A DNA stretch of 29,646 bases from a virus. Location of the stretch: IMG/VR virus record IMGVR_UViG_3300009606_000289, positions 1 through 29,646 of that record. One strand, written 5' to 3'. Position numbers and translations under genes: made by a program. Numbering within the stretch: the first letter of the stretch is position 1; every line of letters begins with the position of its first letter. Shown piece after piece: positions 22,634 to 29,646 of the stretch. The notes under the pieces were generated by a model, which was not told the origin of the DNA, made no database searches, and was given only the letters and a program-made list of their open reading frames with translations.

Positions 22634-23160
22634 GATTTTAACATATCCATAATAAGTTTTGCTTCGGCGATTGCATCATGCAAAGCGTTGTGATTGATAC
22701 CAGTCTTTTCTAACTTGCGTCCAAGAACAGAAGTCAATGTTCTCATGTCGTATATGTCCCAAAACTTCCAAGGCAGTTTGCCTGTTTGCCAGCCCAAAGC
22801 ATACAGTGATGACTCTAATATAGTAACATCAAAACTAGAACCGTTTCCCCAGATAGGAATAGACTTGTCACCATAAAAAGTAACGAACTTATCTATAGCT
22901 TCGTCTAGTGGCACTGGATCTTTTTTCCACGAATCAATAGCTTCTTTAGGCTGAGTCGCCCACCAAGCTACAGTTTCTTTATCTATGTGCAAACCTGCTT
23001 CTTTACATGTAACAGGATCAACATTGATAAAAAACTCTTCTAGAATTCCATCTTGTAGATTGAACTTAACTGCGCCTATCGAAGTTATGCACGAGTTAGG
23101 ACGAACACTTAGCGTTTCTAAGTCTACTACAATTTGAACATCAGATGGCTTTATCCGCAT
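22630..23160 (-). CDS. DEDD 3'-5' exonuclease, DexA/Rv2179c-like
   Basis: 176 residues. VVDLETLSVRP (11-21) holds the first Asp and Glu, IPIWGNGSSFDVTILES the middle Asp, and HNALHDAIAEAKLIMDM the His and final Asp. This is the DEDDh pattern of the RNase T-like fold. The W-W-x-x-Q motif (VAWWATQP) typical of the Rv2179c/T4 DexA group is present. Such enzymes degrade single-stranded DNA or RNA from the 3' end. It overlaps folE by 10 bp and dpdA by 4 bp, embedding it in the modification operon; it may degrade host DNA while modified phage DNA is spared, but that is inference. Confidence 0.87.
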   Translation of the reverse strand: MRIKPSDVQIVVDLETLSVRPNSCITSIGAVKFNLQDGILEEFFINVDPVTCKEAGLHIDKETVAWWATQPKEAIDSWKKDPVPLDEAIDKFVTFYGDKSIPIWGNGSSFDVTILESSLYALGWQTGKLPWKFWDIYDMRTLTSVLGRKLEKTGINHNALHDAIAEAKLIMDMLKS

Positions 23161-23825
23161 AACTGTTCCTGTATTTGAATGTTGTGCATAAATTCGTTAC
23201 GCATAGCTGGATCAGTCTTCAAACGTCCCTTAAGGACAGTAGTTTGAGTTGAACTGTTTGAAGAACGAATGCCCCGATTCTCACAACAACCATGTCGGGC
23301 ACGAATGTATACACCCACTGCATCTGATTCTGTGAGGTTTACTATTTCTTCTGCAATCATTTCAGTGAGTTCTTCTTGCAAGTGTCCACGTTGTGCTAGA
23401 TGTTGTGCTATGCGAGTGTACTTAGACAATCCGATAACATTATTCCCTGGCAAACAAGCAATATAGCAGATACCAGACACAGGTTGGTGATGATGAGAAC
23501 ACATGCTGCGAATATCAGACCTAACAATAATTAACTGATCATATTTACCATCGTTAGGAAATGAAGTTACTTTAGGTGCTGGCTCATATCGACCTGACAT
23601 TATTTCATTCACATACATTTTTGCTAGACGCCGTGCTGTATCTTTACTATTAGGATCGTTCTCAATATCAATAACGAGGCTACTTAATACTCCTTCGAAC
23701 TTCTCTGTAAGTTCTTCTATAAGTCTAGGCTTTTCATCTTCATAGATAAACTTAGAGATATTATCTGAGGCGTAAAATCTTGTGTTTTTATGCGCTAATC
23801 TTGCTTTAATTACTTCACTTATCAT
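23151..23825 (-). CDS. folE: GTP cyclohydrolase I
   Basis: 224 residues. Converts GTP to 7,8-dihydroneopterin triphosphate, the entry to deazaguanine and folate synthesis. The zinc site is visible: Cys109 and the His pair 111-112 in RSMCSHHHQPVSG, and Cys180 or 181 in RHGCCENRGIRS. VIGLSKYTRIAQ (130-141) and QEELTEMIAEEI follow in the usual order. It is of usual length for bacterial FolE. In this context it most likely supplies QueD. ATG overlaps the 63-residue gene by 11 bp. Confidence 0.97.
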   Translation of the reverse strand: MISEVIKARLAHKNTRFYASDNISKFIYEDEKPRLIEELTEKFEGVLSSLVIDIENDPNSKDTARRLAKMYVNEIMSGRYEPAPKVTSFPNDGKYDQLIIVRSDIRSMCSHHHQPVSGICYIACLPGNNVIGLSKYTRIAQHLAQRGHLQEELTEMIAEEIVNLTESDAVGVYIRARHGCCENRGIRSSNSSTQTTVLKGRLKTDPAMRNEFMHNIQIQEQLCG

Positions 23826-24427: not shown

Positions 24428-25315
24428 CTAAGTCCCTATTTGATTTCCATAAACATAGCAGTGATTGCGAGTAGCAACCTTATACCCACGTTGCATAGCT
24501 TGGTTGCAAATTTCTGCAACTTGCTCTTGCTCTTCTTTTGTTGCACCGGCTGGCATTATCCAAATCTCTGGCTTAACAATCTCTGCGCTTCTAGCATACT
24601 CTGCTATCTCTTTCGCATATTGATCTATCTCTTGCCAACTTTCTTCTGTGCCGTTACAAACAAATTTGATAATACTAGTGCTGCAAGTTTTTTCTACATA
24701 AGACATTAAGTTATCTACCATAACTTGTCCCTGTTCACCTGCTGTGTGCCAAGTCTTAGGACTAATTGACCAGTGCCAACGAATGTCCATCTCAGCAAGA
24801 TAGTCGTTTATGAAATCTTGTAAATCTTTGTTTATTTTCTTAGTGCCGTTAGTTTCGACTGTAATAATTTTAGGAACATTGCCACGAATAAGAAACTCGT
24901 TGACAATTGCTTTCATCTGCTTTTGTTGCAGCATGGGTTCGCCGCCAGTAAAGGCAAGCATATTTTCTTGATTTGAAATAGGGTGTGTAAATTTACCATG
25001 AGGAAGAAGTGATTCAAGTTTATCACATGCGCCTTCTACGTCAACGTCTGTTGCTAGATGCTTGTACTTCATTGACCATGTATATGATGAGTCACAGCCT
25101 TTGTCCCACACAGGAAGATCCTCTACACGATCTACTGCAATCAAGTCGTAGTCTTTGTAGGGTAGTTCCCATGTGTCAGGCTTTGTTGGATGTGTTTGAC
25201 CGAAGCCGTTGCACTCTAAGTTACAGCCGAAAAATCTAAGCCATACTGTTGGAGTGCCGGCAAGTTCTGCTTCGCCTTGAAATGACCAGAACATTTCGGA
25301 AAAACGAATTTTCAT
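24428..25315 (-). CDS. queE: QueE-like 7-carboxy-7-deazaguanine synthase (radical SAM)
   Basis: 295 residues. Converts 6-carboxytetrahydropterin to 7-carboxy-7-deazaguanine with a 4Fe-4S cluster and S-adenosylmethionine. FWSFQGEAELAGTPTVWLRF is the QueE N-terminus. The cluster cysteines appear to be Cys31 and Cys35 (FFGCNLEC) plus Cys74 (KGCDSSYTW), so the third is displaced by a 38-residue insertion. TGGEPML (SAM-binding GGE), SPKTWH and a PAGATKEEQEQ region complete it. I recall this inserted form from other marine phages. Transcribed from the promoter at 25342-25370, first gene of the operon. Confidence 0.92.
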   Translation of the reverse strand: MKIRFSEMFWSFQGEAELAGTPTVWLRFFGCNLECNGFGQTHPTKPDTWELPYKDYDLIAVDRVEDLPVWDKGCDSSYTWSMKYKHLATDVDVEGACDKLESLLPHGKFTHPISNQENMLAFTGGEPMLQQKQMKAIVNEFLIRGNVPKIITVETNGTKKINKDLQDFINDYLAEMDIRWHWSISPKTWHTAGEQGQVMVDNLMSYVEKTCSTSIIKFVCNGTEESWQEIDQYAKEIAEYARSAEIVKPEIWIMPAGATKEEQEQVAEICNQAMQRGYKVATRNHCYVYGNQIGT

Positions 25316-26057: not shown

Positions 26058-26486
26058 CTAATGAACAATCTTATCTTTACCATCAATCAATAAATCTAAC
26101 TGCTCCGTCAGATAGTCAAGTTCATCAAAATCAAGATCTTCTAATTCTTTAGCTTCAGGGTCATCTTTCAAGAAGTTACCTTCAAAAGAAACAGGCTTAC
26201 CATAAACATTCTCTACCATCTCCTCGTAAGAGGAGTACAGGCGCTCACTTAATCTATTCATACAAATAACATTGAACTGGTCTATAACAACTTCACGGTC
26301 ATCAGTCATAACTAAGAACGGCCTAAGTACCATATGTTCACCTATTATTTTACCGTTATCATCAGTTACAGGTTTAGCAGTAATCTCTAAAGGAAATTTG
26401 AGAACAATAGAATCAGGAGTGTATTCTAAATCACCGACTAGATTGATACCATTGGCTAAGTGTACAATGTTGTAGTTAATCTCCAC
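26058..26486 (-). CDS. Sm-like phage protein with acidic C-terminus (142 aa)
   Basis: The N-terminal half, YNIVHLANGINLVGDLEYTPDSIVLKFPLEI, has the Sm1 pattern (strand, NG turn, G-D-L). MVLRPFLVMTDDREVVIDQFNVICMNRLSE gives the remaining strands. The C-terminal 40 residues are acidic and helical (DDPEAKELEDLDFDELDYL). The layout parallels the protein at 3307-3648, so the two may be distant paralogues. RNA or protein scaffolding is inferred from the fold only. GTG start with AAAGG upstream, overlapping UvsW by 11 bp. A plus-strand promoter lies just beyond its stop. Confidence 0.65.
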   Translation of the reverse strand: MEINYNIVHLANGINLVGDLEYTPDSIVLKFPLEITAKPVTDDNGKIIGEHMVLRPFLVMTDDREVVIDQFNVICMNRLSERLYSSYEEMVENVYGKPVSFEGNFLKDDPEAKELEDLDFDELDYLTEQLDLLIDGKDKIVH

Positions 26487-27960
26487 TGATAGGTACCTTT
26501 ATCATTTTGTATTCGAATCCTTCTTCATTATATATTTTTACACGCTCAACCATATGTCCAAGAGTGTAGTTCTTTTTAGACTTCCAAGATAGGTCATCAC
26601 CAATATCAAAAAGCTCACAAGATGTCTTGTTGTCGCCTTTTCTCAACCCTCTACCAATACTCTGTAAGTTTCTGATTCTACTTTTACTAGGTGAAGCAAA
26701 AACGATATTGTGCAAGTTACGAATATTTATGCCTGTTGAAAACGTACCATATGAGGCGATAATGATAGCATCATTTTCTTTTTCAGTCAATGCTCGTATC
26801 TGTTCTCGTTGTTCAGTATCAGTGCCGCCATGAACAAAGAACACACTTCGTTTGTCTCCTACTTTCTCACTTACTAAATCGTTCAGCACCTTACCGTGCT
26901 TCTCTACATATTGAAACAACACTAGCGTATTGCCTTTCTGAGTAGTGCATAGATTTTTTATGAATGTGTTACGCCTGGGATTAGATACAATCCAATCCAT
27001 CTCTTCTTGATAGGTCATTTTTTTTACTAGCTTTCTATCTTCGTCACTATAATCCAGAAGAAGACAAGTAATAGCAAGATCAGCTACACTTTTTTGTTCC
27101 ATTAGTTTTTTAGTAGTGATTACTTTTTTGACAGCACCAAAGATGCCTTCTAGTACTAACTTGTGTGTCTTAGTACCGTCAAGCGTACCAGTAGTTCCTA
27201 TTCTATAAGGTGCGTTAGAGCATTTGTCTAGTATAGAAGTAAGAGATTTTGCTTTGAAGTTATGTGCTTCGTCTCCATACACAACGTCAAACTGCTCAAA
27301 CCATTGCTTAGGAAACTTGTAGATAGATTGCCAAGTAGAGATAGTTATTGGTGCTGAGTTTGACTTTTCTTTTCCGCCGTAGATTCTGTGACAGTTTTCT
27401 GCTGCGTTCCAATCATCTGCTGTTGCGTAGTCTCCGAAGTCTCCAAACATCTGCTCAACGAGCGAGGTTGTTGGCACAATGAGGAGCTGTTTGCGACCAA
27501 GCTGTTGGTGATAGCGAACAAGGTTATAGATAATAAGAGACTTCCCAGATGCAGTGGGGGAAAGTAAGAGGGCTCTCCCTTCGTTGATAGAGTGTTTGAC
27601 AGCCTCGATTTGATAGTCTCTGATTTCAATGTCTTTTCCGCCGCTCTGTAGTTTTAGTTTTTTAGCTAATGATTCTACATACTGAGTAGATACTGGATCG
27701 CCAACATCTTTTATATCAACTTCTATTTTATATTCTAAAGTATTTGCAAATTCTTTTAGGTACGGTAACAGACCTACATAAAGTTCTTGTCTGTACATGT
27801 TGAACAAACGTGCTTTTCCATCCCACATGCGACTCTTGTAGCTAGGCATAAACTTAGCTCCAGGCACATCGAATGTAAAGAATTCAGATATCTCTTGAGC
27901 AGTAGAAGGGTCACTATCTACTTTGAGAAACACTTCATTCTTTTTAGTTACTCGTATCAC
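26476..27960 (-). CDS. uvsW: DNA helicase, T4 UvsW-like
   Basis: 494 residues, superfamily 2. The N-terminal domain reads AKFMPSYKSRMWDGKARLFN, typical of UvsW. Walker A/motif I is SPTASGKSL (134-142), motif II YGDEAHNF (DEAH), motif III IGTTGTLDG and motif VI LQSIGRGLRKGD. UvsW unwinds R-loops, branched DNA and stalled forks and switches off origin-dependent replication late in infection. GTG start overlaps the UvsY stop by one base. A late promoter box upstream of uvsY fits T4, where uvsW is a late gene. Confidence 0.97.
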   Translation of the reverse strand: MIRVTKKNEVFLKVDSDPSTAQEISEFFTFDVPGAKFMPSYKSRMWDGKARLFNMYRQELYVGLLPYLKEFANTLEYKIEVDIKDVGDPVSTQYVESLAKKLKLQSGGKDIEIRDYQIEAVKHSINEGRALLLSPTASGKSLIIYNLVRYHQQLGRKQLLIVPTTSLVEQMFGDFGDYATADDWNAAENCHRIYGGKEKSNSAPITISTWQSIYKFPKQWFEQFDVVYGDEAHNFKAKSLTSILDKCSNAPYRIGTTGTLDGTKTHKLVLEGIFGAVKKVITTKKLMEQKSVADLAITCLLLDYSDEDRKLVKKMTYQEEMDWIVSNPRRNTFIKNLCTTQKGNTLVLFQYVEKHGKVLNDLVSEKVGDKRSVFFVHGGTDTEQREQIRALTEKENDAIIIASYGTFSTGINIRNLHNIVFASPSKSRIRNLQSIGRGLRKGDNKTSCELFDIGDDLSWKSKKNYTLGHMVERVKIYNEEGFEYKMIKVPISGD

Positions 27961-28403
27961 TACATAAGTCCGTTAGTAAACTTCATAAACTCGATAGCAT
28001 TTTTGATATCACAAGTTCTGCTATTCAGAGATTTCATAACAAACTCACACTGATACAAACACGCTTTAATATATTCTATTTTATCTACGATTTTTATTAT
28101 GTCAGAATCGCTATCTAGATATTCTTGCATCTCATTTTTTAGAGGCTGCGGTCCTAGATACTGTTCCCATCCTAAGTTGTCTAACTCTTCACGAGACAGT
28201 TCGCCTCTGAAGTAACGCCACTTAATACGGCGCAAAGAATACATCTGAGATTCATATTTTCTCAGTTGCAACTTGAAAGTTGTAAGGTGGTTCAGATACT
28301 TAGAGTGTAACTCAGGAGTTTTTGTAGATTCACTGCCAAGATTTAGTTCATCAATTTTGCAGTCAGCTTTCCACTGATCCTGCAATTCGTTCAACGTAAT
28401 CAT
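27960..28403 (-). CDS. uvsY: Recombination mediator, T4 UvsY-like
   Basis: 147 residues (T4 UvsY is 137). Matches the UvsY pattern: LNELQDQWKADCKIDELNL, ELHSKYLNHLTTFKLQLRKYE, a WRYFRGELS turn, YLDSDSDIIKI and the C-terminal helix LNSRTCDIKNAIEFMKFTNG. UvsY displaces gp32 and loads the UvsX recombinase on single-stranded DNA. Gene order uvsY-uvsW is reversed by strand but conserved in adjacency with T4. A late box lies 25 bases before the ATG. Confidence 0.92.
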   Translation of the reverse strand: MITLNELQDQWKADCKIDELNLGSESTKTPELHSKYLNHLTTFKLQLRKYESQMYSLRRIKWRYFRGELSREELDNLGWEQYLGPQPLKNEMQEYLDSDSDIIKIVDKIEYIKACLYQCEFVMKSLNSRTCDIKNAIEFMKFTNGLM

Positions 28404-28427: not shown

Positions 28428-28435
28428 TATTTATA
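28428..28435 (-). promoter_or_regulatory. T4-type late promoter box for uvsY-uvsW
   Basis: Minus-strand TATAAATA overlapping the tail-gene stop (GTA TAA ATA), 25 bases before the UvsY ATG. Confidence 0.7.
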
Positions 28436-29012
28436 CTGCCTCTATCTTGTATTGTCTGTATCTAAAAGAAGCTACTCCTTGAAAGTAATCAGTATTCCCT
28501 GAACTTAATTCAAACTCTAGTCCACTCAAAGATGTAGGAAACGCATCTTGAAATACAATTTTAGTTTGTGGATTGTTATTAGAGTCTAGAATAAACAAAG
28601 ACGCATCACTGAAATTTCCTAACGCTTGTTGTTTATCAACTCGGATGTTAGGAAAACGATATGACTGGCTGTTAGAGAAGTCTGTGTATTGCTTGTGTGA
28701 TTCAGGAAAACCTAGACCAATAAGCCATTCATAAAGCTCATTATAGTTTGCCATGTTTTCTTGTATGATAAAGCGAATCATTAATTCACCGTATGCAAGT
28801 TTATCACCCGGCTCATAGTAATCTACGAGAGGTGTTGCAACTTGAGGTGATCCCAATGAAACATCAGGAATGTTCGCCGACTGACAGAAGAATGATACGT
28901 TGGGCAAATTATGAACTAGAAACTTAAAACCATTTGGCTTTAGATAATCTAGTTCACTCGGATTCCCAGCGGACCATGATGCTTCTTTTACACTTGTTAA
29001 GATGTCAACCAT
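28431..29012 (-). CDS. Tail tube-like / baseplate structural protein
   Basis: 193 residues. The pattern NGFKFLVHNLPNVSFFCQSANIPDVSLG, then PLVDYYEPGDKLAYGELMIRFIIQENMANYNELYEWLIGLG and a C-terminal SFRYRQYKIE is the tube-domain pattern shared by T4 gp19, gp48 and gp54 and their marine-phage relatives. It is longer than gp19 (163) and shorter than gp54, so it may be a baseplate or tube-initiation protein rather than the main tube subunit. AGGA upstream of ATG and a late box 28 bases away fit a late structural gene. Next to uvsY, in line with T4 where baseplate genes 25 and 26 follow. Confidence 0.7.
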   Translation of the reverse strand: MVDILTSVKEASWSAGNPSELDYLKPNGFKFLVHNLPNVSFFCQSANIPDVSLGSPQVATPLVDYYEPGDKLAYGELMIRFIIQENMANYNELYEWLIGLGFPESHKQYTDFSNSQSYRFPNIRVDKQQALGNFSDASLFILDSNNNPQTKIVFQDAFPTSLSGLEFELSSGNTDYFQGVASFRYRQYKIEAV

Positions 29013-29039
29013 AGTAATATCCTTAAAAATCGATACTAC

Positions 29040-29047
29040 TATTTATA
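29040..29047 (-). promoter_or_regulatory. T4-type late promoter box for the tail gene
   Basis: Minus-strand TATAAATA, 28 bases before the ATG at 29012. It follows the stop of the 34-residue membrane peptide by 5 bases. Confidence 0.72.
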
Positions 29048-29052
29048 ACGAT

Positions 29053-29157
29053 TTAAACTACTGCGATTGCAGCCATTACGACAGGTGAAGTTACTACTAA
29101 TGCTAATAAAAAAGTAACAACAGTTTCTAGCTTGGCAGTCTTTGCGCCGATTCTCAT
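29053..29157 (-). CDS. Small membrane peptide (34 aa)
   Basis: Found by hand. ATG at 29157 has AAGGA eight bases upstream. The peptide starts MRIGAKTAKLE, with four basic residues, followed by one long hydrophobic segment (VVTFLLALVVTSPVVMAAIAVV without its first residues) to the stop, consistent with a single membrane span, basic end inside. No family recognised. Candidates by type are a small lysis or membrane-modifying protein, but nothing demonstrates either. It sits in the gap between the copper monooxygenase-like gene and the tail gene, with a palindrome and an imperfect late box upstream. Confidence 0.55.
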   Translation of the reverse strand: MRIGAKTAKLETVVTFLLALVVTSPVVMAAIAVV

Positions 29158-29199
29158 TTCTAGTTCCTTGCCTTGTGAGCAGAATAAAGTTAAAATAAA

Positions 29200-29218
29200 G
29201 TGTGTAGATAATACACAC
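29200..29218 (-). repeat. Operator-like palindrome upstream of the membrane peptide
   Basis: GTGTGTA, five bases, TACACAC; perfect 7-bp arms. Same spacer length and similar half-site as the gp45 palindrome (9001-9021). A TATAAGTA string (29222-29229), one mismatch from the late box, lies just before it on the minus strand. The rest of the 29158-29286 gap holds only a further TGACAAA/TTTGTCA inverted repeat at 29269-29284. Confidence 0.4.
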
Positions 29219-29286
29219 ATATACTTATAACAATTATGCGCTCACATGACAAGATTCTAACAAAATAATGACAAAAGTTTGTCAAT

Positions 29287-29646
29287 TTATTCTACATTCT
29301 TCCAAGTAAATGCTCCAAAGAACATTTCATCCTCGCTCATCTGTCCCCAAGGCACTAGTCTGCTTGGATCTGGATTCATTGGATTGTCTGCTGAGTTATC
29401 AAACGCACCCTCTACAAACAATCTAGTTCCTGCAGGAATAAACTTAGGCTCTCTCCACGTATATGAAAGTTGCCAAGCGTAGTCGTACTTAGGAATATCA
29501 ATCAACTCTTCTTCAGTACCATCAGCATAGATTGCTTTTGCTTTCATGCTCTTACCACGGAAATGCATGTGAGGCAAGAATGTATGCAATCTGATATCAT
29601 TCTTCAATGTAATCTCTGCTGTCTGTACAAAGTTAGGATCGTATGG
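29287..29646 (-). CDS. Copper type II ascorbate-dependent monooxygenase-like protein, C-terminal part (5' end outside window)
   Basis: At least 119 residues visible; the reading frame is open to the right edge, so the gene starts outside. Hand translation of the first part gives PYDPNFVQTAEITLKNDIRL. The segment FLPHMHFRGKSM has the H-x-H copper pair (29563-29571) of the peptidylglycine hydroxylase C-terminal domain. The DNSADNPMNPDP loop and WGQMSEDEMFFGAF follow; the Met at 29323-29325 fits the third CuM ligand. This closely resembles the C-terminal domain of large secreted copper monooxygenase-like proteins known from Planctomycetes and other marine bacteria. No such gene is standard in T4-like phages. 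The N-terminal copper domain, any signal peptide and the true length cannot be seen. A TTG internal codon is not the start. Confidence 0.75.
   Translation of the reverse strand, partial: PYDPNFVQTAEITLKNDIRLHTFLPHMHFRGKSMKAKAIYADGTEEELIDIPKYDYAWQLSYTWREPKFIPAGTRLFVEGAFDNSADNPMNPDPSRLVPWGQMSEDEMFFGAFTWKNVE

Follow-up and report, generated by a model that had tools for sequence, protein, structure and literature searches.

The truncated gene at the end of this T4-like phage contig belongs to a redox cluster of two or three genes, made up of two tandem genes for predicted heme-fused copper monooxygenases (hereafter P1 and P2) and, at some loci, a cytochrome c gene between them. We think it probable that the cluster is auxiliary cargo encoding a redox module that is expressed late and exported, and whose two heme-copper enzymes hydroxylate C–H bonds in the host periplasm. 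On balance, we also lean toward the view that the cytochrome c and the two heme-copper PHM-fold enzymes make up a self-contained periplasmic chain, a new auxiliary class that is exchanged among unrelated phages and acts on a specific host compound. The PHM/DBH superfamily is well known in animals, and its heme-fused form already exists in bacteria; what appears to be new is an auxiliary gene class in phages built from a divergent branch of this superfamily. The original prediction had recognized a copper type II monooxygenase-like gene from its C-terminal domain; it had no sight of the heme domain at the N-terminus, of the CuH half, or of the partner gene P1 and the cytochrome.

A Copper Monooxygenase-Like Gene at the End of a T4-Like Phage Contig

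The window analyzed here is the full 29,646-base IMG/VR record IMGVR_UViG_3300009606_000289, in which T4-like phage genes for DNA polymerase, a gp46-like SbcC, UvsW, UvsY, and tail tube were recognized. At its end lies a minus-strand frame (29287..29646) that is open up to the contig end, with no start codon before it, and that encodes the C-terminal 119 aa of P2, i.e., the CuM half of a predicted heme c-PHM-fold copper monooxygenase, with 98% identity to P2 of locus L003. As anticipated, the frame contains an HMH motif, corresponding to two CuM histidines (codons 29571-29569 and 29565-29563, minus strand; H319 and H321 of L003 P2), the methionine of EDEMFFG, a putative CuM ligand (29325-29323, minus strand; M401 of L003 P2), and the DNSADNPMNPDP loop; the two histidines and the methionine are invariant in our alignment. 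P2 was also said to lie on the same strand as a tail gene and 274 bases upstream of it, and both the strand and the exact distance hold. This gap (29013..29286, minus strand) contains a T4-late-type TATAAATA, identified by sequence (29040-29047), upstream of the tail gene, which encodes a gp19-like tail tube protein (28431..29012, minus strand; PHROG_45, E 9e-34, and synteny). The cluster is inserted next to this gp19-like gene, which is followed on the same strand by the genes for the recombination mediator UvsY (27960..28403; PF11056, E 1e-28; PHROG_231) and the helicase UvsW (26476..27960; PF21241, PHROG_16). Elsewhere in the window, a QueE-like radical SAM gene and a GTP cyclohydrolase gene (24428-25315 and 23151-23825) make up a 7-deazaguanine pathway pair.

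Bacterial contamination or chimeric assembly could in principle explain P2 in the window, as the contig end falls within the gene and relatives are frequent in one bacterial family. However, two contigs from different samples repeat the window end almost identically (L002, 99.94% over 3502 nt; L005, 99.96% over 4687 nt), including the P2–gp19–UvsY junction, which rules out a chimeric end; the break that would have told against the original prediction is absent, and L002 lengthens the window P2 gene to 314 aa. The same P2–gp19–UvsY order is found in many more diverged contigs. T4-like contigs share the gene order gp22, gp23, P1, P2, gp19, UvsY, UvsW, and in intact examples, such as L067, phage hallmark genes stand on either side of the pair, which rules out bacterial contamination. 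Moreover, phage P2 sequences form a single, separate clade with a long stem and full support, albeit in trees that, for P1 and P2 alike, were quick and contain long branches. The T4-like phage context is genuine, and the probability that either artifact accounts for P2 is negligible. A candidate bacterial host copy was also rejected: L082 (1-6996), a MAG contig whose P2 is 76% identical, is probably a chimeric join or a phage fragment, because its phage-type P1 is 5'-truncated and its GC content shifts from ~62% to ~40% at about 4.9 kb, and it was omitted from the trees.

Predicted Heme and Copper Sites in a PHM/DBH-Type Fold

Full-length viral relatives are ~410-450 aa long. P2 of L003 (412 aa) consists of an export signal, a domain with a CQSCH motif, and a C-terminal part of ~300 aa, and P1 (~430 aa), encoded upstream of P2, has the same layout and ligands at ~28% identity to P2. 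Using a simple heuristic, signal-like N-termini were found in 56/58 P2 and 45/45 P1 sequences. We aligned 39 sequences, comprising phage P1, phage P2, and bacterial relatives with identity down to ~28%, and found C41, C44, H45, M77, H185, H186, H248, H319, H321, and M401 (L003 P2 numbering) to be invariant. By its sequence, the CxxCH motif (C41, C44, H45) is a c-type heme attachment motif in a predicted exported protein, with M77 as a possible axial heme ligand. The predicted CuH ligands are H185, H186, and H248, which in a profile alignment pair with the HH and VHY motifs of DBH, and the predicted CuM ligands are H319 and H321, together with M401; the HMH of the window likewise pairs with the LHTHL motif of human DBH. 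M401 falls outside the DBH alignment and is a putative ligand by position and spacing, the methionine of EDEMFFG lying at a constant spacing of 80 from the second histidine in 66/66 P2 sequences.

Curated Pfam models place these proteins less readily. Of the two families that had been proposed, PF03712 (Cu2_monoox_C) was indeed seen but below its cut-off (11.6-15.6 bits versus the 23 needed, with 15.6 for the window frame), and PF01082 was not reported among the relatives scanned with Pfam. The cytochrome c model PF13442 was also below cut-off in 37/39 members of the alignment. P1 and P2 thus represent a divergent branch beyond the reach of PF01082 and PF03712. A domain-only, bacteria-rich profile of the C-terminal domain matched human DBH (4zel; E 2.3e-6) with the HH, HY, and HxH motifs aligned; direct PDB sequence searches with P2 or a mixed full-length profile did not reach PHM. 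AlphaFold models of full-length relatives of P2 and P1 were of moderate confidence (pLDDT 69.5 and 71.5), with the lowest values near the heme motif, and the best 28 (P2) and 31 (P1) PDB structure matches to these models were all PHM/DBH (probability 1.00, E 1e-9 to 1e-11, target-normalized TM up to ~0.6). Together, profiles and models assign P1 and P2 to the copper type II PHM/DBH superfamily fold, and the assignment made from the window frame is upheld by the DBH profile match, the fold models, and the invariant metal ligands.

The same fold raises the question of whether P1 and P2 are virion-associated or displayed structural proteins, the double jelly-roll serving as capsid or tail decoration; a virion-displayed domain had also been offered in the original prediction. 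The location between gp23 and gp19 would suit such a role, some viral capsid proteins share the double jelly-roll fold (PMC8812541), and weak matches to PRD1 P3 and iridovirus capsid proteins were seen, although far below those to PHM. Yet the signal peptides, the invariance of the heme and copper ligands, and the companion cytochrome in the same cluster all point away from it, as does strong purifying selection, with pairwise dN/dS of ~0.1 for both P1 and P2 (an approximate value, because dS is high), and in other phages P1 and P2 sit far from structural genes. In the full-length relatives the copper ligands persist and the structural matches are to PHM/DBH, not to a fiber or baseplate domain; the reverse would have overturned the original prediction. 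We regard a structural role as very improbable. The HxH motif was kept in every phage copy checked and is absent from some bacterial paralogs (L154, L157, L172, L122, and L126).

A Mobile Gene Cluster with Late-Type Promoters

Homologs in other phage genomes, for which a search had been advised, proved numerous. A viral contig scan found close relatives of the window frame in 116 viral stretches, and a profile of the partner family P1 found 303. P2 usually follows P1 in tandem, with the two genes close together or overlapping; the overlap is commonly 29, 8, or 1 nt, and otherwise a few hundred bases lie between the two. At 17 viral loci, the slot between them holds a gene for a secreted protein of 95-123 aa, which is a cytochrome c by its match to PF00034 (E 1e-7, over the Pfam cut-off). 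One of these P1–cyt–P2 loci, L055, has the closest backbone to the window among P1-bearing loci (93% over 3.6 kb). Among 153 viral loci, 111 had both genes, 27 had P1 only, and 15 had P2 only. Of the P2-only loci, 14/15 were cut at the contig end, and one, L056, has a cytochrome directly upstream, after which the contig ends. We dropped the idea that P1 and P2 invariably occur together, as 21/27 P1-only loci had room for P2. In several phages, the gene just 3' of P2 encodes a small protein that is EF-hand-like and whose C-terminal half is hydrophobic (L080:10466-10795, L066:8434-8760, L016:10374-10718, and L039:11130-11468).

In 6/7 distinct loci with gp19 context, TATAAATA, the T4 late promoter motif, stands 37-72 nt before P1, with a chance expectation of about 0.03 per 220 nt. 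The isolates nearest by gp23, Melnitz (69%) and HTVC008M (68%), have gp23 and gp19 and lack the P1/P2 pair between them. Among the uncultured phages that carry it, the pair was found mostly in T4-like ones, but it is present in other backbones too: ahead of a giant tail gene (gp9/10-like, ~2,900 aa), in a 339,794-base contig next to tail sheath genes, and elsewhere close to ribonucleotide reductase genes or to NAD ligase/DnaB. The similarities of gp19 and P2 disagree, the gp19 of L055 being 96% identical to that of the window but its P2 only 84%, whereas L003, of a different backbone, has a P2 98% identical to the window's, which indicates that the cargo moves between phage types. Being of cellular type, inside phage genomes, and not universal in their backbone, P1 and P2 are phage auxiliary metabolic genes. 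No relative of P1 or P2 was found in INPHARED, PHROGs, PLSDB, or PADLOC, and a search of the open-access literature likewise found no description of such genes in phages; the INPHARED, PHROGs, and literature results agree with the earlier remark that no phage auxiliary gene of this kind is established.

Bacterial Relatives and Gene History

The closest cellular relatives of P1, up to 83-88% identical, come from one family of Pseudomonadales-order genomes (gammaproteobacteria), and strong matches were present in 32/59 sampled genomes of that family. Elsewhere in the phylum, 1/398 sampled genomes matched, and that one is itself a member of the family. Many genomes of the family encode 10-37 heme c-PHM candidates each. 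A large heme c-PHM expansion was observed in G002, G004, G836, and others of the family, with some paralogs lacking the CuM histidines. The relatives suggest that the hosts are probably marine gammaproteobacteria. Since phage P1 sequences occupy at least two positions inside the bacterial diversity of the tree, these genes have passed between the bacteria and phages more than once. The nearest bacterial relatives of phage P2, at about 50% identity, have an additional N-terminal AhpC/TSA redoxin domain.

Directly beside bacterial P1 pairs is a conserved secreted protein of 308-312 aa with no Pfam match (L122:9554-10477, L124:9400-10335, and L125:11914-12852). Near it are an MFS transporter and, in two genomes, also kynureninase, a possible clue to the substrate.

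Proposed Function

We propose that P1 and P2 would be expressed late and exported by Sec, with heme attached by the host in the periplasm and copper acquired there. The fused heme would receive electrons from the host's pool of cytochrome c, or from the phage cytochrome, and relay them to CuH and CuM, taking the place of the ascorbate used by animal PHM/DBH, and O2 on CuM would hydroxylate a C–H bond in a substrate located in the periplasm, in the envelope, or bound to the surface. P1 may be the core activity, as 21 loci that have space for P2 carry P1 without it; P2, from which the redoxin domain of its bacterial relatives has been lost, might act on the P1 product or on a second substrate. 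The likeliest benefit to the phage would be a host metabolite rerouted or scavenged late in infection.

Two other functions were weighed against this one. The pair could oxidize a host surface component late in infection, masking the receptor and blocking adsorption of further phages, and both the export signals and the late-type promoters are compatible with such superinfection exclusion, as is a fixed pair common to very different phages that may compete for the same hosts. However, a bacterial family with 10-37 paralogs of its own better suits a catabolic or general metabolic role, and no match to a defense family was found with PADLOC; we therefore consider exclusion unlikely. Alternatively, the proteins might chiefly consume O2 or electrons, or bind copper, keeping the periplasm of the dying cell reduced, with hydroxylation secondary. 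Two heme-copper proteins plus a cytochrome do resemble an electron-transfer chain, and a redoxin domain is present in P2 relatives from bacteria, but a two-copper PHM layout in which every ligand is conserved is what a coupled monooxygenase has, and terminal oxidases are built differently, so that we give little credence to an electron sink or oxidant protection as the main role.

If hydroxylation by active enzymes is indeed the function, phages would be supplying their hosts with O2-activating copper chemistry that has a built-in heme electron source, and a new type of reaction would be added to phage auxiliary metabolism. The cluster is common in viral metagenomes, to judge from the 303 stretches retrieved with one profile, yet missing from the phage isolates searched. 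The phage genes also offer a handle on a large uncharacterized bacterial family of heme-copper enzymes: that phages keep two of 10-37 paralogs points to the activities that may be most important during infection.

Comparison with Known Systems

Like eukaryotic PHM and DBH, the phage proteins are predicted to be exported, share the fold over their last ~300 aa, and have His-His and His (CuH) followed by His-x-His and Met (CuM) in the same order with similar spacing. In contrast to PHM/DBH, they carry a fused c-type heme domain, and identity over the fold matches is 9-17%. In PHM, the peptide carboxylate is bound by R240, N316, and Y318 (rat numbering). Counterparts were absent at the phage motif positions in a motif comparison (as distinct from a structural superposition), where HxH is preceded by Leu or Gln and the Met is followed by FF/GA or TH/AW, and no PAL (NHL propeller) lyase partner was recognized among annotated phage neighbors, so that PHM-like peptide amidation is not favored. 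In one bacterium, an SMP-30/NHL-type propeller (L122:16500-17423) lies about 3-4 kb from a P1 pair and is a possible lyase-like partner.

The bacterial heme c-PHM paralogs have the same architecture and ligands as the phage proteins, and they too occur in tandem, as P1–P1 copies. Those of P1 type have ~440-560 aa and those of P2 type 570-640 aa, the latter including the redoxin domain that is gone from phage P2. The copy number differs, with 10-37 in the bacteria and two in phages, and the P1–(cyt c)–P2 layout was found in phage contigs only.

The nearest known idea is that of phage pmoC and viral amoC. Here, too, phages carry an auxiliary gene for a copper monooxygenase, namely for the C subunit of a membrane enzyme (e.g., PMC7674155). 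These, however, belong to an unrelated integral-membrane family and supply a lone subunit that needs host partners, whereas P1 and P2 are predicted to be exported and soluble, each with a heme domain of its own.
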